Shown here piece by piece: positions 10,203 to 51,286 of a stretch of DNA of 64,000 bases. The notes beneath the pieces were generated by a model, which worked only from the letters and a program-made list of their open reading frames with translations, had not been told where the DNA came from and searched no databases. Positions within the stretch are counted from its first letter, which is position 1. Each line of letters opens with the position of its first letter. The position numbers and the translations under genes are program-made. The DNA is from Pseudodesulfovibrio cashew (GTDB lineage: Bacteria > Desulfobacterota > Desulfovibrionia > Desulfovibrionales > Desulfovibrionaceae): contig NZ_CP046400.1 of NCBI RefSeq assembly GCF_009762795.1, positions 1,961,501 through 2,025,500 on the forward strand, written 5' to 3'.

Positions 10203-10278
<76 letters not shown>

Positions 10279-10349: not shown

Positions 10350-10367
10350 TGTCCGCTATGTGTCCGC
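10350..10367. repeat. End motif of island A, left copy (possible integrase arm site)
   Basis: The motif TGTCCGCTATGTGTCCGC contains two GTCCGC cores. It overlaps the integrase stop codon. The same 18 bases occur at the other end of island A (26453-26470), with one mismatch in the island D remnant (51358-51375). Confidence 0.6.
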
Positions 10368-11543
10368 CGCTTCCGACCGACTGTTTTCGGTGCCGGTCAT
10401 GGCGTAGCGCGCGGCCAGACGATCTTGCGGACCGTCTTCCAACACGCCTTCAAGGTGGCTGTACCGGTCCGTCATGCGCAGGGTCTTGTGCCCGATCATG
10501 ACGTTGGTCTCCTTGAGCGTGCAGCCTGCCTTCAGCATGTTCGTGCAATAGGTGTGGCGGTGATCGTGGAAGTGCAGGTCGTCGAAGTCGTGGTCTTTGC
10601 ACAGCCCTTCCCACGCGGCCTTGATGGACCTGAACGGGGTGCCGTCCATGTTGCCGATCACGAAATCGTCCTTGGTCGCCACGCCCCGTTTTTCTCGGTG
10701 TCGGGTCACATGCTCCAAACGAGCTTCGAGTGCTTTGCGGGTGCGGGGCATAATCCGGTGGGTTCGGGTCACCCCATTTTTGGTGCGGTGGAACGTGATG
10801 TGGTTTTCCGCAAGGTCGACATTGGCCCACTTGAGGCTGAGGACTTCCTGGGTGCTGCACCCGTGCTCGACCGCCAGCAGGATCGCCAGGGGCAAGTAGT
10901 GCTTCGCCCTGCGCTGATGGGCCGCTGCCAGCAGCTTCTCGATTTCGAGGGGGTTCTGGGCCTTCTTGCGCTCACTGGCCTTCTCCGACAAGTATGGGAT
11001 GTCCCGCGCAATGTCTTTTTCGATCAAACCCTGCTTCGCGGCCTGTGCGAACACTTGCTTGATGACAAACAATCGGCGGTTCGCCAATACGTTGCAGTTC
11101 TTGCCTTTTTCGCCCTTGGCCACAAGCTTCGCCTTGGTCTGTTCGGCGATGCCGATGCGGTAATCTCGAATGGTCTCCTCCTTGAGGTCATGGAGCAGGG
11201 TGTGCTTCCATCCCTTCAGGACCGGGGCCAGCAGGTAGCCGTACCCGGCATGGCTCGCCTGGGATATCTTTCCTTCCCCGAGCTTTCGGTCCCATTCGTC
11301 CCGACACAGCAGGGCAGCTTGCCCAAAAGTGGGCAGGGACTGCTGCTTCGGTTGCCGAGTTTCCTTGGTCGGCAATCTGCCACTGTCGAGCAGGGTGCGA
11401 AGCCGGTTGGCTTCTTCCTGGGCCAGGTCTTTCCGTCTTAGCGTCTTGTGGTATTCCTTCCTGCCCGTTTCCGGGTTGTTGAAGTGAATGACGTACGCTT
11501 TTCCCTTTTTCAGCGAACGGGTCGCGATGGTGACAGTAGCCAT
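10356..11543 (-). CDS. int: Tyrosine recombinase (integrase) of island A
   Basis: This 395-residue protein belongs to the phage-type tyrosine integrases that use tRNA genes. The N-terminal ~100 residues are a basic arm-binding region and residues ~70-170 a core-binding SAM-like domain. The catalytic domain has the box HDHRHTYCTNM (H-x-x-R) near residue 325 and the nucleophile region IGHKTLRMTDRYSHL near 355. Oddly, the position of the first catalytic arginine (normally G-x-R-x-x-E) reads GCSTQE, so that Arg looks replaced. Either another residue serves or activity is reduced. Start ATG 11543 is preceded by GGAGAA inside the end of the excisionase-like gene, implying translational coupling. 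The stop codon lies inside the end-motif repeat. The gene sits 78 bp from the tRNA, the usual place for an integrase. Confidence 0.92.
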   Translation of the reverse strand: MATVTIATRSLKKGKAYVIHFNNPETGRKEYHKTLRRKDLAQEEANRLRTLLDSGRLPTKETRQPKQQSLPTFGQAALLCRDEWDRKLGEGKISQASHAGYGYLLAPVLKGWKHTLLHDLKEETIRDYRIGIAEQTKAKLVAKGEKGKNCNVLANRRLFVIKQVFAQAAKQGLIEKDIARDIPYLSEKASERKKAQNPLEIEKLLAAAHQRRAKHYLPLAILLAVEHGCSTQEVLSLKWANVDLAENHITFHRTKNGVTRTHRIMPRTRKALEARLEHVTRHREKRGVATKDDFVIGNMDGTPFRSIKAAWEGLCKDHDFDDLHFHDHRHTYCTNMLKAGCTLKETNVMIGHKTLRMTDRYSHLEGVLEDGPQDRLAARYAMTGTENSRSEAADT

Positions 11544-13639: not shown

Positions 13640-16600
13640 CTAGCTCATGAAGAAGGTTGAAAGACAGCTGGCGAGGTACTCATTAACCTTCTGCGAGAGC
13701 CGCTTAACCCCCAGGATATCCGCCAAGTCCCGGACTCGGTCTTTGCTCATCACAAGCTCAGGATGGTCAGCTATAAGCCCGAATAGTTCGTGGCGCGAGA
13801 TGTCTGTGACGGCTCTACCTTCGATGGTCCTATAAGGGACCTTTTCCTGATAAGTTCCAGGTGACCAGATAAAAGTCGTCTTACCTTCCTTGCGGAGTTC
13901 ATTCTTGCCGAGGCAGGTGTCGATTTGCTGCCGGATGTTGGCACCGGTCCTTTTCCAGCCGTGGGCTTTGCAGATAGTCCGGGCCAGTCGGTCGGCCTCA
14001 ATGGGGCCTTCTTTCTCTACCAGATAGTCGATCAGTTGACAGAGAATCGGTGTGTATCCGGCATCGAAGAAACGGTCCGCATCCGGTTGGACGGGCCATT
14101 TGATAGGCGAGATATTACTTGAGACCGTCGAATCCTCCACCCCGGTTGATTTGGCATATTTTGAGTGTTGATCTGGTGGTTCCGGATCAGAATACGGAAG
14201 CTCAAGTTCATTGCTTACATTGGGAAGCTTGACTTGTCTTGAAACCCGAGGCTGCAAAACATGCTCTTCTTCCGGTTGTGATTTCATGGTTTCCGCAACA
14301 AGCTCTTCGGGCACCTCCCTCCATTCCTCTTCTTGCTCGGATTGTTCTTTGGCCTGGGCTTCTAGTTCCTTCTCCTTTTGGCGGGAGTTTTCGAGAAGCT
14401 CCTCAAGTTCTGTATGAACCCGTTTGAGCGCTTCCGTAGGAGTCATGAACCAGTCTGTTGACCATATGCGGATGATGTTCCACCCGAGGTTACATAGGAC
14501 CGCCTCACGGATTTTGTCTCGATCCCGTGCGCTTGCGGAACTGTGGTAGGTTGCGCCGTCACACTCAACGCCCGCCAGGTAGGCACCTGCGTGATCGGGA
14601 TGGACCACGCCCAGGTCGATTCGGTAATCGGAAACACCGATTTGAGGCCGTATCTCCCAGCCCTTGTCTTGAAGAGCGGACATGACGGCTTCTTCAAACG
14701 GACTCTCCGCATCACCAACGGAATCACCCCTACCCGCACCGCACGGGAGCGCTATCGGGCCTCGCTTGGCGTAGTCAAGAAAGGTCTTGAGATGGGCCAC
14801 GCCAAGGGCCTTGGTCCGCGATGTGTCGATGTCATCGGCCTCAATTGATGAGAAGACATGCATTTCGGATCGGGCGCGCGTTACGGCGACGTTTAGGCGT
14901 CTTTCTCCTCCATCCCGATTGAGCGCGCCGAAACTCATTGACATTTTGTCTCCATTATCTCGCCCGAAGGTAATGGAGAAGCACATGATGTCCCGCTCAT
15001 CTCCCTGGATGTTTTCCAGGTTCTTGACGATAACCGGTTCTTCTCGATTTTCGCTGAAGAACCATTCAAGCTTCGGATTGGAACGTCGGGCCTCGTCAAA
15101 AAGATTGAGGATCAGTTCCTGTTGCTGGATGTTGAACGTGATGACGCCGAGGGTCGGTCTCGTCTCCTTTGGGAGTTGTAGCCAGTGTTCCAGTCGTGAC
15201 CTAGCAAACCGGACGATTTCTCTCGCTTCCGTGATGTTGGTACGGCCTGTGCCTCTCGCATACGCGCCGTCGTTTTTGTGAAAAACAAGGGCATCTGATT
15301 CTGTTTTGGGCGAAGGGAAGGTGATGAGTCTACCACCATAATAGTGATGGTTCGAGAACGAGATCAACGATTCATCTCGGCTTCGGTAATGCCAGTTCAA
15401 CTGGACTTCCGGCAGGCCCGCCGCACTGGCTTCTTCGAGAATACTGGGCAGGTCTTTTTCATATTCGGCAAGGTCGTCCTCGTCCTCGTCATCGGCACGG
15501 CCGAAAAAGTTGGTGGGTGGCAACTGTTTCGGGTCGCCCACGATGATGGATTGCTCGGCCCTGGCGATGGCTCCGACCGCATCCCACGTCGTGATCTGGG
15601 AGGCTTCATCGAAAATGACCACATCAAATTGTGTCTGGTCTGCTGGGAGGTATTGAGCCACTGAAAGCGGTGACATGAGCATGCATGGCGCCAGTTTGGT
15701 GAACACGGTTGGCGTGTTTTCGAGTAATTTGCGGATGGAAAGGCTCGGCCGTTGCAAAGATAGTTGGTGTCTCAATGCTCCCAATTCCGAGCGGCGAGGG
15801 ACGCTATCCCTGGCGGGAAGCCCATGCGATGTCTTAATCAATACCTGATCCGAGGCCATTTTTTGAACGGCTTCGTCCCTCTTGCGAAACTCTCGTATCA
15901 AATCTTCGTGGGACCAATGGCGGAAGCCGCGAAGCTCTGAACTGGCGTCTATGACGAGGGGCAACCACCAATGGAAATATGCCACCCGGAAATCCAACTT
16001 GGCGTTTTCGATCTGCCCGGTTGGTAGTGCCTTCAGAAACGGATCAAGGCCCAGTGCCCGTGCTTCCTCTCTGACCGCCACCCAACGGACCCAATCCGCC
16101 AGTTGTGTCTTGTGGGCAATCAAATGTCGTAGGTTCGTTTCAAGGGACTCTATCGACGGGATATGCAGCTTTCCTTTGGAGTGAACAGCGTAGGCATCAC
16201 AGGCCGATTTGAATTCCCTGAGCGCTGAATGAAATGCCGTTGCCAGGCGTTCGGCGTCAGGTCGTTGCTGCCCGTGATTGAGCAGGGAGTCCAATGCGGC
16301 TCCAAACTGCTGGGCATCAGAGGCATAACGGCGAACATCGGCGAGCGCTTGTTGCAGATTCCCAGCACCTTTGAGATATTCCAATACGTTGGAATGGTCG
16401 GTTTCTTCGTTTCGAAATACCGGAAGCCCTGCCAGCTCGCTCTGGTCGATGGTTTCAATGTTGTTTTGGATTTCCCGCAGGGGAATTATTTCCGAAGCGA
16501 CATCCACCTTGCCGTCCGCTGCATAGCTTTGGAGAAGTTTGCCGATTCGCCTGCGCCCGAAGGCCGAGAGTGGCCACATTTTGGCATTTGCCTCGCGCCA

Positions 16601-19138
16601 TTGACGGTCGATGTCGTCCACGGGGATGCGTTTCAGTTCGGCGTTTTCGTAGCTAGCCGTGAGGTTCGACCGGGCTTGGCGAATGATGGTGATGGCGGCG
16701 GCGAGAGATGCCGCGGCTTCTTCCAAACGGCCCAATTCCGCATCGACGACCTTGCTGTAGTCCTGCCCGGAAGCGATCCGGCAAACCTCATGGAATCGAT
16801 TGAGTTGCTTTATGCGCTCAAGATTTGTTTCCTCAGCGTCTGGTAGCCCTATCTTATGCGCCAAGGCGTCGGCGGTTTCCTTGAGTTGGGGAATAGTAGC
16901 CAAAATTGATTCGGCGTGTTCAATCAGACTGTTTTGCCAAGAAAACGTCCATTCCTCAGCGTCGATGCTGTCGAATCCCTTGCAGTCGCGGACAATGGCG
17001 TGAATTCTGTCCGCGCGTATTGCGGTCTCCTCAAGCCTGGCGAACATGCCCGGATCGTGCGCATTGAGATTGTCGAACGTGAGAGTGAACCGTGGGCGAT
17101 GTCCGGCGACAACGCCGATGGCCTGGAAAACACTGAAGCCGTGGCTACCAGGTGCATGAAGTTGTTCCACATACCTGTTGAGTTGGTCTCTTGCCGCCTC
17201 AAGTTGGCTTGTTGCACGGTCCCAGGAATCCGTCGCATATTTTTCACTACGTTCCCAAGCGGCCCCCAGTTGGGCCAGAACACGTTTCCTGTCGGATTTA
17301 TTGGAGTGGAGTTCAAGGCAGACGTCGCCAAGCCCGTATGCCTTCAATCGGCGGTAAACCACGTCCAGCGCCGCTGATTTCTCCGCCACAAAAAGAACGC
17401 GTTTCCCCACGGAGAGGCACTGGGCGATCATGTTGGCGATTGTCTGGCTTTTCCCTGTGCCGGGAGGGCCGATGACAACGAAGTCGTGTCCGTTCATGGC
17501 CGCAACAACGGCAGCCAACTGGGAGCTGTCGGCGGGAAGCGGAGTCAGCAGGTCATGCAGGGGGATCTTTTTGTCGATCTCGTTGGGCAGGGGAAGACAG
17601 GGGCCGTCACACGCTTGGACAAAAGGAGTCTCGGGCGAGTCTATGAGATGTTTGACAAGCCGGTTGTTTCTCAGGTCCTCGGTTCGGTCGACCAAATCCT
17701 TCCACATGAGATACTTGGCAAAAGAAAACGTGGAAAACGCCGCCTCCTCAACAACTTCAAATCCTGGGATGTCCCGCACGGCCTTGCGCATGAGCGAGAA
17801 GACCAAAGGGACGTCGATACCTGATTCGTCTTTTGGGAGCTCTCCTTCCAAGGACGGAACCCTGAGTCCGAAATCCCGTTGCAAGAATTGAAGGAGGGTC
17901 GAGTTGATGCGGATGTCGTCTTCATGGTGTGCAAGATAAAAATCCGATTTCGCCGAACGGCGTTTCAGGGAAACCGGGAGCAGGAGGATGGGGGCTCGAT
18001 ACAGCGTCGGGTCGTTTTCCGTTTTCTTCCACCTGAGGAAGCCCACCGCCAGGTAGAGGGTGTTGGCGCCCCCTTCCGCGAGTTCACTGTTGGCCTTGCG
18101 GAAAAGCGTGACCAGCCGGTTGCGCATGTCTGTTCCGGGCAGCGGAATGCAGAGCTGCTTGCGCTCCAGGGCGTCCTTGGCGAACTCCTCATGGATGTCT
18201 TTGCCGTTTTGTTGCTGATACAATTCCGGATCCCGTGCCCCGACAGGGTTTTCATCCTTGAGGGATATGACCCGAAGGCGGCTTCCGTCCGCCAGCATGT
18301 CTTCCAGTCTCGGAAGATCCGGGCACAAGACCGGGATGGTCTGCTTGGTGTCCTTGAAGTTGAGGAGGCGATTTCGAAGAGTCAGGTCAAGGAGCTTTCG
18401 TTGCCATCGGTCTATCCTGTCTTGAGCTGTCTGGGGCGTTTCGTCGATTACTTCACCCGGCAACATGCCGAAGTCCGGTTCCGGCGGGAGAGCCGCCGGG
18501 GCAACTTCCTCTGCGGCTTCTTTTGAGGATTCTTCGACATGATGGGCAGCGAGGGGAGTGACACCTGCAAAACGAGCCCTGCGGATGTCCACGGCACGCT
18601 CGAAGTCGACTTCGTTTTTTTCGTTGAGTTTCACCCTGGCGTTTTGAACCGCTTGGGTGAAGTCCGCTACGGGACGATTCGTTACCAAGGTCGTTTCAAA
18701 TGCCTCGAATTCACGCGCCGCGATGGCTTTGCGGAGTTCGACCACATCCGGTTCTTCAATGGAGGGCAGAGTCTTGTCCGCAAGCCAGACGCCTGTAAAG
18801 GCGTGTCCCTTGGTAAAGATAATGACAGGGTTGAGGCCCGCCGCTTCAAGCGCACCAGCAAATAGCAGCGAGCTGTCGAGGCAGGTGACCAACCCCTCGT
18901 CGTGTATCCGCCGCGGCCCTCGGACCTTCTGCCCTCTGGATTCAAAAGAGGCGGGAGGCTGTGCATAGCTCAGTGCCTTTTCGGTGATGGCCGACCATAT
19001 GCCGGCAGCAAGCATGTACGCCCGTTTGGGGTCTTGATCCTGGTACCCGTTGAGCGCCCCGTTGTGACCACCCTTTTCAAGGAGCATACTTGCCCCGTTT
19101 GCAAATTTTTGCGACGACGGGATCGTTCGGCGAGACAA
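13640..19138 (-). CDS. DUF4011/DUF3320 superfamily-1 helicase with Vsr-like nuclease (main frame)
   Basis: This 1,832-residue protein is of the large helicase-nuclease type common in defence islands. In order, it has a transglutaminase-like segment (CLDSSLLFAGALEAAGL near residue 86) and a DUF4011 region beginning IDRWQRKLLDLTLRNRLLNF near 240. Walker A GPPGTGKS lies near 553, DEAS (motif II) near 1175 followed by VGDPKQLPP, and LNVAVTRARSE (motif VI) near 1400. A MTES_1575/Vsr-like endonuclease follows with SPFEEAV, DYRIDLG and VECDGATYH (~1480-1560). A DUF3320 winged-helix domain is at ~1700-1790. Known relatives unwind and cut nucleic acid; an anti-phage role is inferred. ATG 19138 is internal to the family's normal N-terminus. 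The missing ~140 residues are in the overlapping frame 19077-19544, separated by a +1 shift. Confidence 0.92.
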   Translation of the reverse strand: MSRRTIPSSQKFANGASMLLEKGGHNGALNGYQDQDPKRAYMLAAGIWSAITEKALSYAQPPASFESRGQKVRGPRRIHDEGLVTCLDSSLLFAGALEAAGLNPVIIFTKGHAFTGVWLADKTLPSIEEPDVVELRKAIAAREFEAFETTLVTNRPVADFTQAVQNARVKLNEKNEVDFERAVDIRRARFAGVTPLAAHHVEESSKEAAEEVAPAALPPEPDFGMLPGEVIDETPQTAQDRIDRWQRKLLDLTLRNRLLNFKDTKQTIPVLCPDLPRLEDMLADGSRLRVISLKDENPVGARDPELYQQQNGKDIHEEFAKDALERKQLCIPLPGTDMRNRLVTLFRKANSELAEGGANTLYLAVGFLRWKKTENDPTLYRAPILLLPVSLKRRSAKSDFYLAHHEDDIRINSTLLQFLQRDFGLRVPSLEGELPKDESGIDVPLVFSLMRKAVRDIPGFEVVEEAAFSTFSFAKYLMWKDLVDRTEDLRNNRLVKHLIDSPETPFVQACDGPCLPLPNEIDKKIPLHDLLTPLPADSSQLAAVVAAMNGHDFVVIGPPGTGKSQTIANMIAQCLSVGKRVLFVAEKSAALDVVYRRLKAYGLGDVCLELHSNKSDRKRVLAQLGAAWERSEKYATDSWDRATSQLEAARDQLNRYVEQLHAPGSHGFSVFQAIGVVAGHRPRFTLTFDNLNAHDPGMFARLEETAIRADRIHAIVRDCKGFDSIDAEEWTFSWQNSLIEHAESILATIPQLKETADALAHKIGLPDAEETNLERIKQLNRFHEVCRIASGQDYSKVVDAELGRLEEAAASLAAAITIIRQARSNLTASYENAELKRIPVDDIDRQWREANAKMWPLSAFGRRRIGKLLQSYAADGKVDVASEIIPLREIQNNIETIDQSELAGLPVFRNEETDHSNVLEYLKGAGNLQQALADVRRYASDAQQFGAALDSLLNHGQQRPDAERLATAFHSALREFKSACDAYAVHSKGKLHIPSIESLETNLRHLIAHKTQLADWVRWVAVREEARALGLDPFLKALPTGQIENAKLDFRVAYFHWWLPLVIDASSELRGFRHWSHEDLIREFRKRDEAVQKMASDQVLIKTSHGLPARDSVPRRSELGALRHQLSLQRPSLSIRKLLENTPTVFTKLAPCMLMSPLSVAQYLPADQTQFDVVIFDEASQITTWDAVGAIARAEQSIIVGDPKQLPPTNFFGRADDEDEDDLAEYEKDLPSILEEASAAGLPEVQLNWHYRSRDESLISFSNHHYYGGRLITFPSPKTESDALVFHKNDGAYARGTGRTNITEAREIVRFARSRLEHWLQLPKETRPTLGVITFNIQQQELILNLFDEARRSNPKLEWFFSENREEPVIVKNLENIQGDERDIMCFSITFGRDNGDKMSMSFGALNRDGGERRLNVAVTRARSEMHVFSSIEADDIDTSRTKALGVAHLKTFLDYAKRGPIALPCGAGRGDSVGDAESPFEEAVMSALQDKGWEIRPQIGVSDYRIDLGVVHPDHAGAYLAGVECDGATYHSSASARDRDKIREAVLCNLGWNIIRIWSTDWFMTPTEALKRVHTELEELLENSRQKEKELEAQAKEQSEQEEEWREVPEELVAETMKSQPEEEHVLQPRVSRQVKLPNVSNELELPYSDPEPPDQHSKYAKSTGVEDSTVSSNISPIKWPVQPDADRFFDAGYTPILCQLIDYLVEKEGPIEADRLARTICKAHGWKRTGANIRQQIDTCLGKNELRKEGKTTFIWSPGTYQEKVPYRTIEGRAVTDISRHELFGLIADHPELVMSKDRVRDLADILGVKRLSQKVNEYLASCLSTFFMS

Positions 19139-19544
19139 ACGCGGCGAGGATGCTGGCCATTTCGCCCAAGCCGCCCCATTCGTCTCGCGCCAGAAGCCTG
19201 ATGGGCAGAATCTGTTCGCCCAAGGCCGCCTCGTTCTGGCGAAGCCGGAAGGTCAGTTGTCCACGCTCAGCTTCGTTGAGCCCATCGAAAAAAGCGAAGT
19301 CGTATTCCAACCGCAAGTCGGAGAGGGATATGTCGCTATTGGCATGTATTCTGTCGATGGTCCAAGTCTTGTTCCGGCAAAACGGAGGGTGAGGAGTGAG
19401 CTCCAGGGTGATATTCTCAACAGGCACATCCGAGGTGTTGCGGATTTGGATGCTACGCAGAATGGGAACCGAATTTTGCGCGGAGACAAAATTGATGCAT
19501 TCGGCTGCGGATATTACCAAAGTGGGCGTGCTGTCCGTATTCAT
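19077..19544 (-). CDS. N-terminal fragment of the DUF4011 helicase, frameshifted from the main frame
   Basis: This 155-residue frame has the usual start of large DUF4011 helicases: a beta-rich domain with VPILRSIQIRNTSDVP, ILPIRLLARDEWGG and ASILAAFVSPNDPVVAK. The family protein would continue FANGASMLLE, and that continuation is found one base out of phase in the main frame. The two frames overlap by 62 bp. Removing one A from the A5 run in GCAAAAATTTGC (plus-strand 19113-19117) fuses them. The shift may be a natural mutation, a slippage-prone switch or a sequencing error. As written, the cell makes a short N-terminal piece and possibly an independently started large protein. Confidence 0.85.
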   Translation of the reverse strand: MNTDSTPTLVISAAECINFVSAQNSVPILRSIQIRNTSDVPVENITLELTPHPPFCRNKTWTIDRIHANSDISLSDLRLEYDFAFFDGLNEAERGQLTFRLRQNEAALGEQILPIRLLARDEWGGLGEMASILAAFVSPNDPVVAKICKRGKYAP

Positions 19545-19702: not shown

Positions 19703-20434
19703 GTGAATAGGTTAGACCATTGCATCGAGGTGTTGTCCGTAGAGAAAGGGAAGTTGCACCTTCGCGAAATTGCCCGGCTTCTCGTCGCAAGGTATCCCTC
19801 TATCTATGGTGGCCTGGATTTGGAGGACTTGGGGAAGAAAATTGGCCAATCCATCAGCAATCATATTCGTAACGCCAAGCGGAAAGCCAAGATTTCCAAA
19901 GTTCCCAATGGCAAGGGTGGGTATCTTTCCGGTATGTACAGAGCAAAGCAGAAACGGAAAAAGACAGCATCAGCAAAACTCCCCCCGGTTTCAAATTTAT
20001 ATACAGGCAAGGCCGGAGAGTATGGGCTGTTGAGCGAACTCCTGTTCCAAGGGTACAACGCTTCAATCATGACTGTTGATGAAGGAATCGACGTCGTTGC
20101 ATCCAAGGGGAACAAGTATTTCCATATCCAGGTGAAGACAGCTAATTGCAACAAGCACGGAAAGTTTCAATTCACTATCAAAGCGAAGAGCTACAAATCG
20201 AATAATGCCTCAACAACATTTTATGTATTTATTACTAGGCGACTCATCGCCGGGGCTTGGAGAAGTGACTATATAGTGTTTCAAAGTGGAGATATCGCAA
20301 AACTTATTGCAACTGGTGTTGTTACAGCCGGTAAGCAGCATTCGTTTTTGGTGTTGTATGAGAACAGTAAGTGTTTATTGAATAACGGGAATGATATTAC
20401 ATATCATTTGAACAATTTTGACCCAATGAAATAA
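19703..20434 (+). CDS. HARE-HTH plus PD-(D/E)XK restriction-like nuclease
   Basis: This 243-residue protein starts at GTG 19703 behind GGAGG. Residues ~1-70 match a HARE-type winged helix (HLREIARLLVARYPSIYGG...GQSISNHIRNAKRK). HARE domains couple DNA- or chromatin-binding to nucleases in restriction systems. Residues ~95-160 show a nuclease core: GKAGEYGLLSELLFQ (Glu), EGIDVVAS (catalytic Asp) and FHIQVKTA (Gln-x-Lys). The gene lies divergently from the helicase, whose upstream frame ends 158 bp away. No methyltransferase is adjacent, so if it restricts DNA it does so alone, perhaps on modified DNA or together with the helicase. The target is not known. Confidence 0.75.
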   Translation: MNRLDHCIEVLSVEKGKLHLREIARLLVARYPSIYGGLDLEDLGKKIGQSISNHIRNAKRKAKISKVPNGKGGYLSGMYRAKQKRKKTASAKLPPVSNLYTGKAGEYGLLSELLFQGYNASIMTVDEGIDVVASKGNKYFHIQVKTANCNKHGKFQFTIKAKSYKSNNASTTFYVFITRRLIAGAWRSDYIVFQSGDIAKLIATGVVTAGKQHSFLVLYENSKCLLNNGNDITYHLNNFDPMK

Positions 20435-20482
20435 TCAAGTGAGTGCACCCGTTGACTTAATCCCCGTCCGTTTCGAGATATC

Positions 20483-20511
20483 TTGACTTAACGGTTGGCA
20501 GTCTCTAAAAA
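20483..20511 (+). promoter_or_regulatory. Candidate promoter of the peptide/E1 operon
   Basis: TTGACT (20483-20488) and TAAAAA (20506-20511) are 17 bases apart. The expected start lies about 50 bases before the peptide gene. A second TTGACTTAA occurs 31 bases upstream (20452), so the -35 region is duplicated and could be an operator. Confidence 0.4.
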
Positions 20512-20566
20512 TTGTCTGTAGAAAATAAATTCTCGGGATTCAATATTTAACCGTTTGGGGATTGAA

Positions 20567-20779
20567 ATGCAGAAAAAGCACGATGAACACATGGAGAAAT
20601 TCGGGTTTGCCATCGTTTCCGACGAAGACGGCATGGACAGCGTCGCCTACACGGCTTCCTGTTCTGGCAGTCGTTCCGATTGCTGCACCAGAACTTGCTC
20701 TGCGGATGCCAACTTCGCGGAAAGCGCTGAGGCTTGGGAACAGTATCTGGCAGTCAAGGGCGGACAGGTTCAGTACTAG
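20567..20779 (+). CDS. Cys-rich small peptide, candidate precursor of a modified peptide (RiPP)
   Basis: This 70-residue product starts at ATG 20567 behind GGGGA. Its first ~28 residues are acidic and leader-like (FGFAIVSDEDG). They are followed by a short polar, Ser/Thr/Cys-rich block at 31-47 (SCSGSRSDCCTRTCSAD) with Cys at 32, 39, 40 and 44, and then a ~23-residue tail ending GGQVQY. Immediately downstream are two E1-like enzymes with RRE-like N-terminal domains, which is the arrangement of peptide-modifying clusters. I infer that the Cys/Ser/Thr block is the modified core. It does not match a ubiquitin-like protein: it is too short, lacks a terminal Gly-Gly and has no beta-grasp pattern. 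The family was not recognised. Confidence 0.7.
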   Translation: MQKKHDEHMEKFGFAIVSDEDGMDSVAYTASCSGSRSDCCTRTCSADANFAESAEAWEQYLAVKGGQVQY

Positions 20780-20793
20780 CAGGCGAAATCGTA

Positions 20794-21918
20794 ATGACGC
20801 ATATTTTGGAAGCCTCCGCCCCGGAACTTCGAGACGGGGTGGAGGTTTTTCTTTATCCTGAGAAGGAAGGGATCTGCCAGGTCCTCTTCCTTTTTTTGTC
20901 CAACAGACGGCGTTTGCGCATTGAGTGCAAACCGGCCTTTGCGACTCTGCTCAAGGAATTATCCAAGCCGCAGCCATTAACGGATTCCCTGAACCATTCC
21001 GGGCTGGTCATGGACGAAGAAACCGAGGCCTTTCTCTCCTTTCTTGAGACTGAAGGAATCGTCACCTTGTCCGACCCGCTCGCAACGGACCTGCTTCCCG
21101 TCGAGTATGTGGAGCAATACAAGCGCCAGTTGTATTTCTTGCTGGATATCCTCAAATCGCCGCAAAAGGCTCATGAAGTCCAAAAGCGGATTTTCGACGC
21201 GCACATAACCGTTTTCGGCCTCGGCGCCGTGGGCAGCGGCATCCTGCAACAACTCTGCATGATGGGCTTTAGGCGATTTACCCTCATCGACTGCGCCGAT
21301 GTCGAGGAGAACGACATAGCCCGGACGCCGTACCGGATTGCCACACAGGTGGGAATCCCCAAGACGGAGGCTGCCAAGGCGTTGGCGGCGGATTTCGCCT
21401 TTGATCCCGAAGTCGAGTTGTACAATGTTACCCTCAGGACGGATACCGACCTCGACGAGTTGGTCCAGGGAACGACGCTCATCATCAACACCACCGATCA
21501 ACCCTACGTCGGCTACACCAACATCAAGCTTTCGCGGTATTCCCTGCAGCACGGCATACCCGTGCTGGCTGCCGGTGGATTCGATGCTCATCTCGCATCT
21601 TTGGGAGAGTTGCTGATCCCCCATGTGACGCCGTGCGCGGATTGCTATGCCACGTTTTTTCATGAGAGCCTGAAGGATTGGAAGCCGATCCCCCACCCGG
21701 TCAAGGAGCGCGAAGGCTGGTTCGGCGGGTTGGGCAGCCTGTCCACGTTCAGCGCTTCCACGGCGGTCCTTGATATCCTGGGCTACTTCATGAACCCGGA
21801 AGACCGAAAGGCGGCTCCCGGCGGGCGGGGCGAATTCCTTTTTCATGACTACAGTCTCGATACCTTTGTCGTTGAAAGGGACAAGGAGTGCCAGTTCTGC
21901 GGGGAGGAGCGGAAATGA
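20794..21918 (+). CDS. E1/ThiF-like adenylating enzyme 1 with N-terminal RRE-like domain
   Basis: A 374-residue protein starting at ATG 20794, 14 bp after the peptide gene. Residues ~1-110 look like the winged-helix 'peptide clamp' (RRE) seen in MccB-type enzymes, with three strands, then helices. The E1 core follows. It has the nucleotide loop FGLGAVGSG near 143, an acidic ribose contact in LIDCADVEENDIARTPYR near 167-184, and NTTDQP near 233 with the likely catalytic Asp. Two Cys pairs, CADC near 280 and CQFC near 367, should hold the structural zinc. Such enzymes adenylate a carboxylate, often the peptide C-terminus. The presence of two different E1s in one operon suggests a heterodimer or sequential steps. 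The upstream in-frame GTG/ATG at 20734 would overlap the peptide gene and is not preferred. Confidence 0.88.
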   Translation: MTHILEASAPELRDGVEVFLYPEKEGICQVLFLFLSNRRRLRIECKPAFATLLKELSKPQPLTDSLNHSGLVMDEETEAFLSFLETEGIVTLSDPLATDLLPVEYVEQYKRQLYFLLDILKSPQKAHEVQKRIFDAHITVFGLGAVGSGILQQLCMMGFRRFTLIDCADVEENDIARTPYRIATQVGIPKTEAAKALAADFAFDPEVELYNVTLRTDTDLDELVQGTTLIINTTDQPYVGYTNIKLSRYSLQHGIPVLAAGGFDAHLASLGELLIPHVTPCADCYATFFHESLKDWKPIPHPVKEREGWFGGLGSLSTFSASTAVLDILGYFMNPEDRKAAPGGRGEFLFHDYSLDTFVVERDKECQFCGEERK

Positions 21919-23033
21919 GTCGATACAGCGAGGAGCGCTTCCGGCTTCGTCCGTCCGTCTCGTTCGTGCCCATGCCGCAGGAGGGGACCTACCAGTTCTT
22001 TGTTTCGGACATCAGGCAGAGTTTCAACTTGGCTTTTGCCGATGAGGATTACGTCAGGATTCTGTCCAACTTGGATGGGAGCCTGCCGTATGCCAAGCTG
22101 GCGGAGGCCTACTCTCTTGATGATCGGCAACTTGTCGGGCTGGAACGGCTTTTCGAGGTCCTGATCGAACGGTGTGCCATGGAGGATGCGCGAGTTGTGG
22201 CATCCCGCGAATCCGATCCGTTTCGGCGGGTGAAGACGTTCATTGGCGCTTATGTCCCGTATCACGATGTGGAATCCGTCTGGCAGCGGTTAGCCGAAAG
22301 CCATGCGGTCGTGATCGGGGCCGGTGGTGTGGGGAGTTGGGTCGTCTCCCTGCTGGCCCAGATGGGGGTCAAGCATTTCACGATGCTCGATGACGACGTG
22401 GTCAAGCCGCACAACCTGAACCGATCCCTGTTCACCAAGGGGGATGTGGGCAGCCTCAAGACCTTGGCCCTGGAAAAGATGCTCAACTCGCGACGGGAGG
22501 GGTATTACACGGTCCGGACCATTCAAGAGAAGCTGAAAAGTTCGGAGCGGCTGATCGCGTTGTTGAAGGACGGCTTGTCGCCGCAGACGGTTCTGATCAA
22601 CTGCGCGGATTTCCCTTCGGTGGCCCACACCTCGGCGATCATCAACGAGGCGGCCTTTGAGCTCGATCTGCCCTACATCATTGCTGGCGGCTACAACATG
22701 CACCTCAGCCTGGTGGGGCCGACGATCATCCCAGGCAAGACGCCGTGCTTCCATTGTATTTCGCACGGCATGGACCAGCTCAAGGTGGCCGAGATCGAAG
22801 GGGCGGAGCGCATCGTCAAGGAGCACCGTAATCTCGGCAACCTGGCCCCCCTGGCGACGATCTCCGCCTCCTTCGTGGCCAACGAGTGCCTGAAGCTGTT
22901 GCTCGGATTGCCGAATCTGCAGCCGACCATGATCGGCAAGCGCGGTGAATTCAATTTTTTCACGAAGAAGCTGGTGTTGGAAGAGTATGACGTGTGGGAT
23001 GAGTGTCCGTATTGCAGCGGGAGGATTTTATGA
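21915..23033 (+). CDS. E1/ThiF-like adenylating enzyme 2 with N-terminal RRE-like domain
   Basis: This 372-residue protein starts at ATG 21915, overlapping the previous stop by ATGA, behind GGAGG. Residues ~1-110 again resemble a leader-binding winged helix (TYQFFVSDIRQSFNLAF, then helices). The E1 core has VIGAGGVGSW near 134, LDDDVVKPHNLNRSLF near 158-173 (Asp/Arg contacts) and NCADFP near 228. CFHC near 276 and CPYC near 366 give four zinc-binding Cys. It is clearly related to enzyme 1 but diverged. Tight coupling (ATGA) implies equal production, as for a heterodimer. A role in adenylating or cyclising the small peptide is inferred; a thiamine or molybdopterin role is unlikely because no ThiS/MoaD partner is nearby. 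Confidence 0.88.
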   Translation: MSRYSEERFRLRPSVSFVPMPQEGTYQFFVSDIRQSFNLAFADEDYVRILSNLDGSLPYAKLAEAYSLDDRQLVGLERLFEVLIERCAMEDARVVASRESDPFRRVKTFIGAYVPYHDVESVWQRLAESHAVVIGAGGVGSWVVSLLAQMGVKHFTMLDDDVVKPHNLNRSLFTKGDVGSLKTLALEKMLNSRREGYYTVRTIQEKLKSSERLIALLKDGLSPQTVLINCADFPSVAHTSAIINEAAFELDLPYIIAGGYNMHLSLVGPTIIPGKTPCFHCISHGMDQLKVAEIEGAERIVKEHRNLGNLAPLATISASFVANECLKLLLGLPNLQPTMIGKRGEFNFFTKKLVLEEYDVWDECPYCSGRIL

Positions 23034-24208
23034 ATGAAACTGCGAAGGTTGTTTCGTATTGTTTGAGTGGAGTTGTTCTCGTACTGGCTGTATTCTTTGG
23101 GACTCGTTGCATTGATCTAATTTTTTTACACGCATACTCGATTCAAGGTGATTCAATTAAGCCATCAGCCGAAGCCTTTGTTAATGCTTTTCAGGGGTAC
23201 CGTGACTTCGTTACGGTTATCACTGGACTATTGACATTATTCATTGGGGCGACAGGATTTGCTGCTTTCTTTTCATTCAGGAAATTAAGGGAAGAGGAAA
23301 AGAGCATTGTATTAAAAATGGAGAAAGATGAAGAGCGGATAGAGAAATTGCGGCAGCGGTTGGAGGAAAGGGAAAGGACAGATGGAGAAAAAATCAAAGA
23401 TATTATATGCGATTTGATGCGGTATGCACGAATTCAACAGGCAAGGGTTTTGCTGGAGTCTGAAGCGGATAAAGCTGCAGCTATTGATGTGTTAGAGGGA
23501 AATGAAAGTACTGCATCCAGTGATCATATTTTTCACCAGCTGAAGGGTGATGCGTATTATTATAGGGGAAGACATGGCGACTATGACGTTGCTATTGAAG
23601 AGTACAAAAAAGCAATCAAGTGTAGTGAGAGTTCGTCAGCTTCTTGGCTTGGTCTTGGGCAAGCTAAGTATAGGTCTGTAGCAAGTAAAAATGATGAGCA
23701 AGATGGAGACTTGGACACCGGAGAAGTCATTTCTTTTAGGTTAAAAGAAAATAGGGATACTGTTAGTGATACTAGTGTGGTAGAAGAGGCAATTAGAGAT
23801 GTAAAAATAGCAATAAGCTATGGAGCAAGTGTTGCTGAAGCTGGGATTGAACTTGGGCATATGTATAAATCCATAGAAAAATATGATTCGGCTTTGGATG
23901 CTTACCAAAATGTTTTATCAAGCAATAAGAATCACACAGCCTGTGCGTTTTTTTATTGTCACTTATGGATTGTTAGAAAATATGAAAAACTACTAAGCGA
24001 AGATGTCTCACAGGGAGAAGTCAATGAAATTGTGAGATTGTTAAAAAAGATTGGTTTATTGGATGTCTACAACAGTAAAGTGGCGTATGCATTATTATGG
24101 TATTTGTTCTCGACAATCAAAGGGTTGGGAACCGATAAGGATGTCGATGAAGCCTACTCTGCAACTACAAAGTACACGATCAACAATCTTTTTGAACTTG
24201 TTAAGTGA
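23030..24208 (+). CDS. Membrane-anchored coiled-coil/TPR protein of the E1 operon
   Basis: A 392-residue protein, ATG 23030 overlapping the previous stop by ATGA, behind GGGAGGA. It has two hydrophobic segments (residues ~6-33 and ~62-85), then a charged coiled coil (~90-130). Repeating helical pairs typical of TPRs follow (e.g. GDAYYYRGRHGDYDVAIEEYKKAI near 180 and ELGHMYKSIEKYDSALDAYQNVL near 285). The soluble part probably faces the cytoplasm. The gene is markedly more AT-rich than its neighbours, suggesting a later addition to the cassette. Possible roles are scaffolding the modification enzymes at the membrane or taking part in export or sensing. No transporter or peptidase motif is visible. 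Confidence 0.8.
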   Translation: MNETAKVVSYCLSGVVLVLAVFFGTRCIDLIFLHAYSIQGDSIKPSAEAFVNAFQGYRDFVTVITGLLTLFIGATGFAAFFSFRKLREEEKSIVLKMEKDEERIEKLRQRLEERERTDGEKIKDIICDLMRYARIQQARVLLESEADKAAAIDVLEGNESTASSDHIFHQLKGDAYYYRGRHGDYDVAIEEYKKAIKCSESSSASWLGLGQAKYRSVASKNDEQDGDLDTGEVISFRLKENRDTVSDTSVVEEAIRDVKIAISYGASVAEAGIELGHMYKSIEKYDSALDAYQNVLSSNKNHTACAFFYCHLWIVRKYEKLLSEDVSQGEVNEIVRLLKKIGLLDVYNSKVAYALLWYLFSTIKGLGTDKDVDEAYSATTKYTINNLFELVK

Positions 24209-24222
24209 GATGTTCACCAGCC

Positions 24223-26394
24223 ATGCTCACCCTCCACGGCATAGAAACGAACAACCTCAAGTCGGTTGATGTTTCCATCCCGTATGGGAAGATAACCGCC
24301 GTTGTCGGCGGGAGTGGGGCGGGCAAGACTTCGCTTGCGTTCCATACGCTCTACGCGCTCTGCAAAAACGAACTCGACACCATCTCCGGCATCCCAGCCA
24401 GCCTTCGGCCCAAGGTCCGGGATTATGCCAACCTGCTTCCGACCATCGGGCTGAAGCAGAAGAACGCCAACGTCAATCCCCGGTCGAGCGTCTTCACCTA
24501 TCTCGGACTCGACAAACTCCTCCTTCCCTTGTTCCTGCAAGCCAATCCGGACATCAAGCGGAACATCCTGGCCCAGAACAACCCGGCCAACTATTGCCTG
24601 GCCTGCGAAGGGCTCGGCGTGGTCTATCGGCCTGATCCGGCCTGGATCGTCGATCTCGACAAGCCCCTTGCGGACAAGCCGTTCCTTTCCTGGAACAATT
24701 TCCTCTCCAACCATTACTATTCGCTGCTTGAAGCCTTCTGCTTGGAGCATGGCATCGACATGACCAAGTCCATTTCGCAGTTGCCGCCCCGACAGCAGGA
24801 ATTGCTGCTTCATGGGGCCGACGACAAGCAGTTCCAGGTCAAGTACAAGCAAAAGAACCGCTACCGCCAGAAACGGTTCCCCTTTGTGGGCGCGATCCGA
24901 GAGATTCAGGAATGCTGCGACAACCTGCAGGTGCCGGGAAATCGGCAAAAGGCCAAGTCGTACATCACCGAACAGACCTGCCCGGAGTGCCATGGGGCCA
25001 GGTTTGCGGAGCATCTCTCAGGGTACACGCTCAACGGCTGGATGATCCACGACATCCTCTTGTCGAGCTTTGATGCGCTGCTCCCTTTCATCCAATCCAT
25101 CCCGGCCCATGAATTTGCCGTAAACAAGTTGACGGCCTTGGTTGCCAACGTCGTCAGGAACAATTTGGGCTACCTCGCCCCGATGCGCTCGATTCCGTCC
25201 CTCTCCGGTGGCGAGTTCCAAAGGCTGCAATTGGCTTCGGTGCTCAGCTCGGACTTCACGAACCTGCTCTACGTGATCGACGAAGTCTCCTCCTCATTGC
25301 ACGTTGCGGAATACCCGAACGTCATTGCTCAACTCCAGTCGTTGAAGGAGCGCAATTCCACCTTGGTCATGGTCGAGCACGAATTGGAATTCATCGAGAA
25401 GGCCGACAACCTGATAGCTCTTGAGGACGGCAGGGTGATCGACTCAACGGATTGGCTTCAGCGACAGCGGGAGGTCTCCGTTGACCGCATCAAAGTCGAG
25501 CCGCGAGGCGCTATGGAATTCACCGTTCACGACGTCCACAATATCCGCCACCTCGATGTCTCCCTGCCCATGGGTTGCCTCATCGGTTGCTGCGGCGTGT
25601 CTGGTTCGGGCAAGTCCTCCTTTGCCGAGGCCATCTCGGGCAGGAGCGGCGTTGAATACATCAGCCAGGGAACGATCCAGGGAAACAGCAATTCAACCGT
25701 GGCGACCTACCTCAAGCTCATGCAGCCGATTGATTCGTTTCTGTGCAAGGCCCTGGGTGCTCCTCTGAAGACCTTCCTGTTTAACAACAGCGCCAGCCAA
25801 TGCCCGGGCTGCGAGGGCAAGGGATATGTGGAGCAGGAAGCCTCATTCGGTCATGCGTTTCGTTCCGTCTGCGAAGCCTGCGAGGGCAGGCGCTACAACC
25901 CGGAAGTCCTTGCGTACCGATTCAATTCGCTCTCCGTTCACGACATCCTGACGATGACGGTTGGCGATTTGTCGGCGGCTGGGGTGTTCGCGAAAAGCAG
26001 GAAGATCGCCGCCAAATTGGAGGACATGATTAGCATCGGATTGGGGCACCTGACCCTCTTCAGGGCCACCGGTGAACTTTCGGGCGGGGAGGCGCAGCGG
26101 ATCAAGCTCCTGTCCCGAGTGAAGGCCAATCTCAAGAATACCTTCCTCATCATCGACGAGCCTACCAACGGCCTGGAGCGTCACGATACAAAGCGTCTGA
26201 TCGGATTCCTGGACAGATTGCTCACCAAGGCAAAGGGGATCATGGTCATCGAGCACAACCTGTTCTTGCTGAAAAGCATGGACTACATTTTGGAGTTCGG
26301 CCCTCGCGGCGGCGACAAGGGCGGCGACATTGTTTTTCAGGGCCGCATTGAGGATATGAAAGGCTCAAAGTCCATACTCAAGGATTTTGTTTAG
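24223..26394 (+). CDS. UvrA-like ABC ATPase (short, UvrB-domain-less)
   Basis: A 723-residue protein from ATG 24223; a GTG at 24205 overlapping the previous stop is an alternative. It has both UvrA halves. Walker A GGSGAGKTS lies near 30, zinc modules CLACEG near 125 and CPECHG near 253, and the signature SLSGGEFQR near 328. The second half has GVSGSGKSS near 460, CPGCEGKG near 527, CEACEGRR near 550, LSGGEAQR near 622 and Walker B IIDEPTNGLE near 643. At ~720 residues it is shorter than housekeeping UvrA (~940). The region between the first Walker A and CLACEG is too short for the UvrB-binding insertion. Such UvrA2/DrrC-type proteins protect producers of DNA-binding antibiotics. Here it is the last gene of the peptide operon, so self-immunity is the simplest guess. 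Confidence 0.88.
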   Translation: MLTLHGIETNNLKSVDVSIPYGKITAVVGGSGAGKTSLAFHTLYALCKNELDTISGIPASLRPKVRDYANLLPTIGLKQKNANVNPRSSVFTYLGLDKLLLPLFLQANPDIKRNILAQNNPANYCLACEGLGVVYRPDPAWIVDLDKPLADKPFLSWNNFLSNHYYSLLEAFCLEHGIDMTKSISQLPPRQQELLLHGADDKQFQVKYKQKNRYRQKRFPFVGAIREIQECCDNLQVPGNRQKAKSYITEQTCPECHGARFAEHLSGYTLNGWMIHDILLSSFDALLPFIQSIPAHEFAVNKLTALVANVVRNNLGYLAPMRSIPSLSGGEFQRLQLASVLSSDFTNLLYVIDEVSSSLHVAEYPNVIAQLQSLKERNSTLVMVEHELEFIEKADNLIALEDGRVIDSTDWLQRQREVSVDRIKVEPRGAMEFTVHDVHNIRHLDVSLPMGCLIGCCGVSGSGKSSFAEAISGRSGVEYISQGTIQGNSNSTVATYLKLMQPIDSFLCKALGAPLKTFLFNNSASQCPGCEGKGYVEQEASFGHAFRSVCEACEGRRYNPEVLAYRFNSLSVHDILTMTVGDLSAAGVFAKSRKIAAKLEDMISIGLGHLTLFRATGELSGGEAQRIKLLSRVKANLKNTFLIIDEPTNGLERHDTKRLIGFLDRLLTKAKGIMVIEHNLFLLKSMDYILEFGPRGGDKGGDIVFQGRIEDMKGSKSILKDFV

Positions 26395-26611: not shown

Positions 26612-26658
26612 GAATGGCATTCAAGAGGTCGTGGGTTCGATTCCCTCCAGCTCCACCA
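26612..26658 (+). repeat. att copy 2, junction of islands A and B
   Basis: Identical over 47 nt to the tRNA-Ala 3' half at 10232-10278. The upstream half of the tRNA is absent, so this is an attachment junction and not a gene. Confidence 0.93.
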
Positions 26659-49801: not shown

Positions 49802-49847
49802 AATGGCATTCAAGAGGTCGTGGGTTCAATTCCCTCCAGCTCCACCA
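49802..49847 (+). repeat. att copy 3, junction of islands B and C
   Basis: 46 nt matching the tRNA-Ala 3' half, with one change (G to A in the T loop, TTCAATT). The rest of the tRNA is absent. Confidence 0.92.
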
Positions 49848-51241: not shown

Positions 51242-51286
51242 ATGGCATTCAAGAGGTCGTGGGTTCAATTCCCTCCAGCTCCACCA
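51242..51286 (+). repeat. att copy 4
   Basis: 45 nt of the tRNA-Ala 3' half with the same T-loop change as copy 3. The following ~88 bp (51287-51374) are nearly identical to the DNA after the tRNA (10279-10366). The remnant therefore belongs to the same element family as island A. Confidence 0.92.

Follow-up and report, generated by a model that had tools for sequence, protein, structure and literature searches.

A candidate peptide-modification cassette in Pseudodesulfovibrio cashew

We analyzed a 64,000-nucleotide stretch of the Pseudodesulfovibrio cashew genome (assembly GCF_009762795.1, contig NZ_CP046400.1, forward-strand positions 1,961,501-2,025,500; hereafter the window, meaning this whole stretch, whose own numbering we use), in which five open reading frames (ORFs) encode a small Cys-rich peptide, two E1-like enzymes (E1a and E1b), a tetratricopeptide repeat (TPR) protein and a UvrA-like ATPase. 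A first-pass annotation had proposed that these genes produce a ribosomally synthesized and posttranslationally modified peptide (RiPP), a reading supported overall by the results below, and we consider it very likely that the cassette represents RiPP biosynthesis of the ThiF type. All five ORFs claimed are real, each beginning with ATG on the + strand, and with these starts the junctions measure +14, -4, -4 and +14 bp in gene order; the tight spacing by overlaps and short gaps was correctly described, except that all four junctions, not three of the four, fall under 20 bp.

20567-20779, + strand: precursor-like peptide, 70 amino acids (aa)
20794-21918, + strand: E1a, predicted adenylyltransferase of the MccB/PaaA type with a RiPP recognition element (RRE) and a ThiF domain, 374 aa
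20808-20850, + strand: terminator-like hairpin (attenuator) with a T-rich tail inside the first E1a codons, 16-pair stem, -28.7 kcal/mol
21915-23033, + strand: E1b, second predicted RRE-ThiF adenylyltransferase of the MccB/PaaA type, 372 aa
23030-24208, + strand: TPR protein, 392 aa
24223-26394, + strand: UvrA-like tandem ATP-binding cassette (ABC) ATPase, 723 aa

Recurrence and distribution of the cassette

The search for relatives began from the UvrA-like protein, from E1a and from an alignment of E1b sequences, and was then continued with a peptide profile. Peptide, E1a and E1b occur together at 15 loci in Desulfovibrionaceae and in beta- and gammaproteobacteria, joined at 12 of them by the UvrA-like gene, and because of this recurrence the set is not a chance assembly. 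The five-gene operon originally described thus holds for peptide-E1a-E1b, usually with the UvrA-like gene, whereas the TPR gene lies outside the conserved set. Apart from the window, 11 loci came to light by way of the UvrA-like protein, E1a or E1b and independently of the peptide, and 11 of 11 carry the peptide; the genome neighborhood search that the first-pass annotation had suggested as a check found a small Cys-rich ORF beside 15 of 15 E1a-E1b pairs and none beside a lone E1b relative in Streptococcus cristatus (L015). The set is carried by two further genomes of the window's genus (protein-query search), by plasmids of Moraxella osloensis and Acinetobacter johnsonii, which places two copies on mobilizable plasmids, and in Desulfovibrionaceae, Oxalobacteraceae, Zoogloea, Methyloprofundus, Ignatzschineria and two Pectobacterium genomes, to which the peptide profile added G201 and G114 of the window's genus and G1109 of the family of Pectobacterium. 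At L018 the UvrA-like protein is fused to E1b in one 1096-aa ORF, and at L107, L011 and L013 it is not encoded in the 15-18 kb stretches read, with peptide and E1s intact. The best 80 of 320 matches of the relatives search were listed and the best eight (L011-L018) read as loci; the E values of these eight are 1e-34 or better, and the remaining 72 begin at 2e-15.

Five of 36 genomes of the window's genus are true carriers (G000, G184, G140, G201 and G114); two more, G163 and G209, gave weak peptide matches (E ~0.005) without E1 neighbors and were not counted, leaving 5/36 and not 7/36. The peptide occurs in 2 of 246 genomes of the family of Pectobacterium, seed included, and elsewhere peptide searches returned the starting genome only (1/369, 1/395, 1/195 and 1/201 sampled genomes); outside the genus these searches scored the best 15-31 candidates per genome, so that a miss there is not proof of absence. 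Being rare and in several cases on mobile DNA, the cassette is not a housekeeping function. None of the titles and abstracts returned by literature searches describes this gene set; supplements lay outside those searches, and unnamed network clusters in Figure S1 of PMC12150305 may include the cassette.

Two lone relatives were seen in addition to these loci. The L015 gene, left out of the 15, falls within the E1b side of a joint tree, and no peptide match was found in its genome; at L015 4450-6863 the E1b-like gene, with the GGYNxH motif of the E1b family, precedes a gene resembling those of transporters, and the two may belong to another ThiF-type peptide cluster. In G258 (L132 6161-9520) a lone E1-like gene, again with no peptide match in the search, is accompanied by a second gene and by one that looks like a transporter gene (by eye); together they may form a microcin-like cluster.

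A conserved Cys-rich peptide

The peptide is Cys-rich and measures 63-74 aa across the 15 loci, and the compact Cys-rich block claimed for the window copy, SCSGSRSDCCTRTCSAD, is exact. Thirteen columns are invariant in 15 of 15 members (F14, C32, S37, C39, C40, C44, A56, W57, Y60, L61, G66, Q69 and the C-terminal Y70), residue 58 is always Glu or Asp, every member has the tail AW[D/E]xYLxxxxGxxQY, and DLxF[E/K]V surrounds the invariant Phe in seven of nine members outside Desulfovibrionaceae. When the window is compared with Acinetobacter or Methyloprofundus, the core CSGSRSDCCTRTC agrees at 13 of 13 residues but at only 3 of 13 codons; the neighboring proteins outside Desulfovibrionaceae are 26-30% (E1a), 27-33% (E1b) and 30-33% (UvrA-like) identical to those of the window. 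Within Desulfovibrionaceae the nonsynonymous rate (dN) of the peptide is far below the synonymous rate (dS), for example 0.030 versus 1.09 between the window and G201 (2 of 15 pairs had no usable dS). Judged by these substitution patterns, the peptide is a real gene under selection. The most distant members, from Zoogloea and G1109, keep the C...CC...C pattern and the tail and vary in the loops. Comparison of 12 members with Pfam and NCBIfam gave no family beyond chance level; stray matches at E=0.19 and E=0.032, in one member of the 12 each, look like chance.

Such strong conservation of the core resembles that of cofactor precursors such as PqqA, and the four-Cys peptide might be trimmed to a small molecule serving as cofactor, metallophore or signal, or might bind metal, with the UvrA-like protein doing another job. 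The rare but wide distribution is compatible with this explanation, but the cassette contains no downstream processing enzymes, and its presence in 5/36 genomes of the genus with otherwise 0-1 new matches per 195-395 sampled genomes, and its place on mobile DNA in several cases, make it doubtful.

Two MccB-like enzymes

Both enzymes contain a ThiF domain by Pfam (E1a, E=4.4e-25; E1b, E=1e-35), and for both the best match by profile and by fold over the full length, N-terminal peptide-binding domain included, is MccB, with a further fold match to PaaA that also spans both domains. The structure models are of moderate confidence (predicted local distance difference test, pLDDT, 77.6 and 75.4), and structural alignments with MccB show 16-20% identity. 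A leader-binding domain as in MccB had been claimed for both proteins, and the models, matching MccB end to end, agree; both E1s are accordingly modeled as an N-terminal RRE-type domain fused to a ThiF adenylyltransferase. Both also contain CxxC...CxxC pairs, together with the family motifs GGFDAH (E1a) and GGYNxH (E1b). Nine E1b residues that we take to be the nucleotide site (G135, G137, G140, D159, D161, N167, R170, K182 and D232) are invariant in 11 members, and E1a keeps G142, G144, D166, K190 and D235 in 12 of 12, so the predicted site appears complete in E1b and looser in E1a. The L018 E1b-UvrA fusion ORF was left out of alignments A6, A8 and A9, L107, L108 and L131 out of A5-A9, L007 and L008 out of the folding alignments, and L107 and the L018 fusion out of the gene trees.

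The ThiF/E1 fold, weak PADLOC E1-E2 matches, the conserved peptide C-terminus and a defense neighborhood (see below) could also suggest ubiquitin-like or sulfur-carrier conjugation (Bil or CBASS-Cap2 type) in which the peptide would serve as modifier. However, the E1s match MccB/PaaA over the N-terminal domain too and not just the ThiF core, the peptide belongs to no Pfam or NCBIfam family and has no Gly-Gly end (GxxQY in 15/15), and the scanned window genes include neither an E2 nor a JAB, the other loci having been compared by BLAST with core genes only. The ubiquitin-like partner that the first-pass annotation had named as an outcome speaking against a RiPP was looked for, and there is none in the window cassette, nor did the 12 peptide members yield a family match. 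Given the RRE-like N-termini, the GxxQY end and the lack of E2 and JAB in the window cassette, we reject this explanation as extremely improbable. A YcaO azoline pathway (linear azole-containing or thiazole/oxazole-modified peptides, LAP/TOMM) was rejected as well: of 13 genomes or records, 10 contain YcaO, always on other contigs or more than 0.8 Mb away, and neither the two plasmids nor the Ignatzschineria genome (genome completeness not stated), which has a complete cassette, gave a YcaO match.

A hairpin between peptide and E1a

A hairpin with a T-run is present at 14 of 14 loci tested, lying between peptide and E1a or, in Desulfovibrionaceae, within the first codons of E1a. For the window, 2 of 200 shuffles gave any such hairpin and none an equally stable one; per locus, 0-4 of 200 shuffles gave any, none as stable. 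At the fifteenth locus (L131), outside the 14 shuffle-tested loci, the T-run after the hairpin is weaker. Several lineages have stems of unrelated sequence, while the stems are homologous among the six Desulfovibrionaceae copies, between the two Pectobacterium copies and apparently between Moraxella and Methyloprofundus. A terminator scan of 20300-21300 is no proof alone because it found 3 sites versus 1.6 in shuffles. Because the hairpin should often end transcripts before or just inside E1a, more peptide than enzyme would be expected, and the structure seems to fit a precursor made in excess over its enzymes.

Comparison with known ThiF-made peptides

The closest known systems are MccB of microcin C7 (PDB 3h5a, 3h9j, 6om4), with which the E1s share the N-terminal peptide-binding domain and ThiF adenylyltransferase, and PaaA of pantocin A (PDB 5ff5). 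Members of the microcin C family have a short precursor ending in Asn or Asp, plus an exporter; the cassette does not belong to this family, with its 63-74-aa precursor, Tyr end in 15/15 and no exporter inside. We know of no Cys block in the pantocin A precursor. Microcin C is described with one enzyme and a usually 7-aa precursor (PMC6495379) and pantocin A with a single enzyme making a bicyclic core (PMC12150305), whereas here two E1s accompany a long, Cys-rich precursor with four invariant Cys, with no export gene in the cassette. According to PMC12250964 and PMC12150305, ThiF-type enzymes activate a carboxylate of the peptide by adenylation, and Cys (GrcB), Trp (IndF) or other groups then attack it, those of GrcB (Glu-Cys thiolactone) and IndF (Trp-Ile indolylamide) belonging to the same peptide; the four Cys and one Trp that are invariant here would offer such groups. 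The texts consulted give the grc cluster one ThiF enzyme, radical S-adenosylmethionine (SAM) enzymes and a transporter, and the ind cluster one ThiF enzyme, a peptidase and a transporter; unlike here, no ThiF pair with a UvrA-like protein is described in them, a comparison made by description and not by sequence.

The peptide might be a secreted bacteriocin or Trojan-horse antibiotic of the microcin C or pantocin type that kills competitors, with the UvrA-like protein as self-immunity, as would suit the MccB/PaaA-type enzymes, the two copies on mobilizable plasmids and an immunity-like gene at 12/15 loci. However, at none of the 15 loci does the cassette itself include a gene for an exporter or protease (flanks read by eye), the precursor is long and ends in Tyr, unlike MccA with its Asn, and the peptide core is kept across phyla. 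The flanks hold some transporter- and peptidase-like genes (by eye), such as a cation transporter in L007, and since they are annotated only in part an exporter might be borrowed from them. On balance we regard a secreted toxin as unlikely, though less so than a cofactor or metallophore, and the lack of an exporter or protease in the cassette suggests that the product probably stays inside the cell.

The UvrA-like protein

In the window the UvrA-like protein matches Pfam ABC_tran and UvrA_DNA-bind; its two ABC halves are both present, as are the DNA-binding insertion domain and two sets of CxxC pairs. Residues 132-284 of UvrA (2r6f) have no counterpart in a nine-member profile, and UvrA_DNA-bind is the sole UvrA-specific Pfam match in four members scanned; the missing stretch is as would be expected if the UvrB-binding domain and its zinc module were absent. 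The UvrA2-type architecture assigned earlier is thus borne out by a UvrA fold with the insertion domain and without the UvrB-binding region, and an excision-repair UvrA was rejected because the UvrB-binding domain with zinc module 1 is missing (2r6f 132-284 unmatched). Ecm16 also lacks the UvrB-binding domain (PMC10192343); Ecm16, DrrC and UvrA2 resemble the present protein in having a UvrA fold without that domain and zinc module, the DNA-binding insertion domain being present here, but differ in that Ecm16, DrrC and the relatives listed with them belong to Streptomyces and Micromonospora strains that make drugs which bind DNA. The profile scores 395 bits against Ecm16 (7sh1) versus 482 bits against UvrA (2r6f) and is thus not closer to Ecm16. 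We lean slightly toward a role as protector against a DNA-acting product.

A protector of this architecture on plasmids and integrative elements might also belong to an addiction module akin to toxin-antitoxin systems, in which the modified peptide is a DNA poison, the UvrA-like protein its antidote and defense a by-product. Against this, the protector is missing at 3/15 loci with intact peptide and E1s, and four genes exceed the usual size of such modules, so that we hold it improbable.

As a separate observation, E. coli 23AR0998 (L123 13287-14918) contains a fragment of the UvrA-like gene whose product shares 70% identity with the Pectobacterium protein along its final 306 residues and which abuts an IS1 transposase near a P4-like satellite; a 3.9-kb Pectobacterium query compared with 5426 E. 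coli genomes matched nowhere else.

The variable TPR gene

The TPR protein has hydrophobic N-terminal segments (by eye). Its gene is full length at 5 of 15 loci and truncated at a sixth (L107), all in Desulfovibrionaceae, and was ruled out as a core part on these grounds. The full-length copies are as follows:

23030-24208, window
7066-8220, L009
8393-9472, L010
11201-12313, L108
8116-9195, L011

These copies are 33-54% identical to each other, with a conserved YRDF[VI]T...GLL motif, although the rest of the operon is conserved. In a comparison of the window with G184, identity is 99% for E1a, 93% for E1b and 93% for the UvrA-like protein versus only 33% for TPR; this gene is altered or replaced much more quickly than those around it.

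Mobile element and defense neighbors

The cassette is cargo of a 16.4-kb element comprising tRNA/attachment site (att), integrase, ProA, a 243-aa gene, the cassette and a second att:

10203-10278, + strand: tRNA-Ala(GGC), integration target, its last 32 bp (10247-10278) forming an att copy
10356-11543, - strand: integrase of the element, Phage_integrase 1e-22
13640-19138, - strand: main ORF of anti-phage ProA (DUF4011 helicase), NF058533 2031 bits (cut-off 1500), PADLOC PDC-S37 E=0
19077-19544, - strand: 155-aa ORF, N-terminal part of ProA, NF058533 profile positions 1-133, 2.4e-35
19703-20434, + strand: protein of 243 aa, weakly similar to PD-(D/E)XK, immediately upstream of the cassette
26627-26658, + strand: att repeat copying the tRNA-Ala 3' end, ~230 bp past the UvrA-like gene, closing the element

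The mobile island anticipated for this region is confirmed by the integrase and by a 32-bp exact repeat of the tRNA-Ala 3' end on both sides (10247-10278 and 26627-26658). Two more copies of this end, each with one mismatch, at about 49822-49847 and 51261-51286, point to several islands integrated in tandem at this tRNA. ProA is divided in the window into two ORFs overlapping in different frames (155 aa and 1832 aa), and the L107 homologue also consists of two ORFs, split at another place. The 243-aa gene precedes the cassette in 5/5 carrying genomes of the window's genus and was not noticed at other loci, where flanks were read by eye and no dedicated search was made; it is possibly linked to the cassette. 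Spread by viruses was considered and rejected, since no cassette relatives were confirmed in viral_contigs and, for E1a, none in phages.

Defense genes adjoin the cassette in 6/9 evaluable lineages, counting the window's genus once: besides ProA in the window, there are ProA and an integrase at G1109, BREX in Acinetobacter (record annotation, confirmed by NCBIfam), Gabija in Ignatzschineria, RADAR in Pectobacterium L114, type I restriction genes in a Desulfovibrionaceae metagenome-assembled genome and Ppl in G201. The Methyloprofundus locus, on a short contig, was outside the nine lineages judged. As control, 20 regions at chosen round positions in four cassette genomes were scanned (111 ORFs of >=380 aa, <=7 per region); if same-name models (DpdF, PsyrT, RtcR; JetC, JetD, DinG) all fall on one ORF, 2-6 of the 20 had a match at 1e-100, the scan giving matches without the members concerned, and there was one convincing system, assuming that JetC and JetD (Wadjet) adjoin. 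By Fisher's test, 6/9 differs from 1/20 with p=0.001 and from 6/20 with p=0.07, making the link to defense genes suggestive. As precedents, PMC12360287 offers intracellular lanthipeptides of Actinomycetota in defense islands, with phage protection shown, and DNA-intercalating anthracyclines. The likeness lies in RiPP genes inside defense islands and in an active product that is intracellular there and would be so here; the difference is lanthionine chemistry there and, here, putative ThiF chemistry in Gram-negatives with a UvrA-like protein.

Proposed mechanism

From the computed gene set, RRE-ThiF folds, peptide conservation, hairpins, element and defense neighbors we infer a mechanism, comprising all of its chemistry, target, protection and defense, in which transcription would frequently end at the hairpin, ahead of E1a or shortly into it, and leave the peptide in excess. 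Its N-terminal segment around the invariant Phe would be bound by the RRE domains of E1a and E1b, which would use ATP to adenylate peptide carboxylates that are then attacked by an internal nucleophile. One likely adenylation site is the C-terminal Tyr carboxylate of the invariant GxxQY tail, and the always-acidic residue after the invariant Trp is a candidate for the second; the attack would probably come from this Trp or from the four invariant Cys, on the model of IndF and GrcB, although which ones is a guess. E1b has the complete nucleotide site; E1a, with a looser one, might be a docking partner. The product would remain in the producer and act on DNA, and the UvrA-like ATPase might strip it from the cell's own DNA or shield that DNA, as Ecm16 does against echinomycin. 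For mobile islands the gain would most likely be chemical defense against phages, a role to which we give slightly less than even odds.

Several points weigh against this proposal. E1a is without the third loop Gly in 3/12 members and without the Arg in 1/12. The L015 case demonstrates that relatives of E1b need not be accompanied by the peptide. A peptide so strongly conserved is unusual for an arms-race toxin, although the core does vary in Zoogloea and G1109. The absence of the UvrA-like gene at 3/15 loci with intact peptide and E1s fits an indispensable protector badly, and the gene, whose tree disagrees with the E1a and E1b trees, may be exchanged. No defense gene was noticed at Moraxella, Oxalobacteraceae or Zoogloea (3/9; flanks read by eye), mobile islands carry defense genes anyway, and the control was small and built differently, cassette neighbors having been picked by eye and control regions scanned otherwise. 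Taking these together with the alternatives above, we prefer a ThiF-type RiPP cassette with an intracellular product acting on DNA, probably in phage defense, with a probability of about 0.5. More tentatively, we propose a chemical immune system of mobile elements, in which the paired E1s turn the four-Cys peptide into an intracellular DNA-acting compound that blocks phage genomes, the UvrA-like protein keeps the chromosome clean, and the Desulfovibrionaceae TPR protein is possibly a fast-changing trigger or specificity part.

Conclusion

If correct, the cassette would represent an apparently unreported class among the few known ThiF-made peptides, with two adenylating enzymes acting on one precursor, and would join RiPP chemistry, UvrA-like DNA guarding and phage-defense islands in one portable four-gene unit. 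Because the peptide core is kept from Desulfovibrionaceae to gammaproteobacteria, one structure could serve for much of the family.

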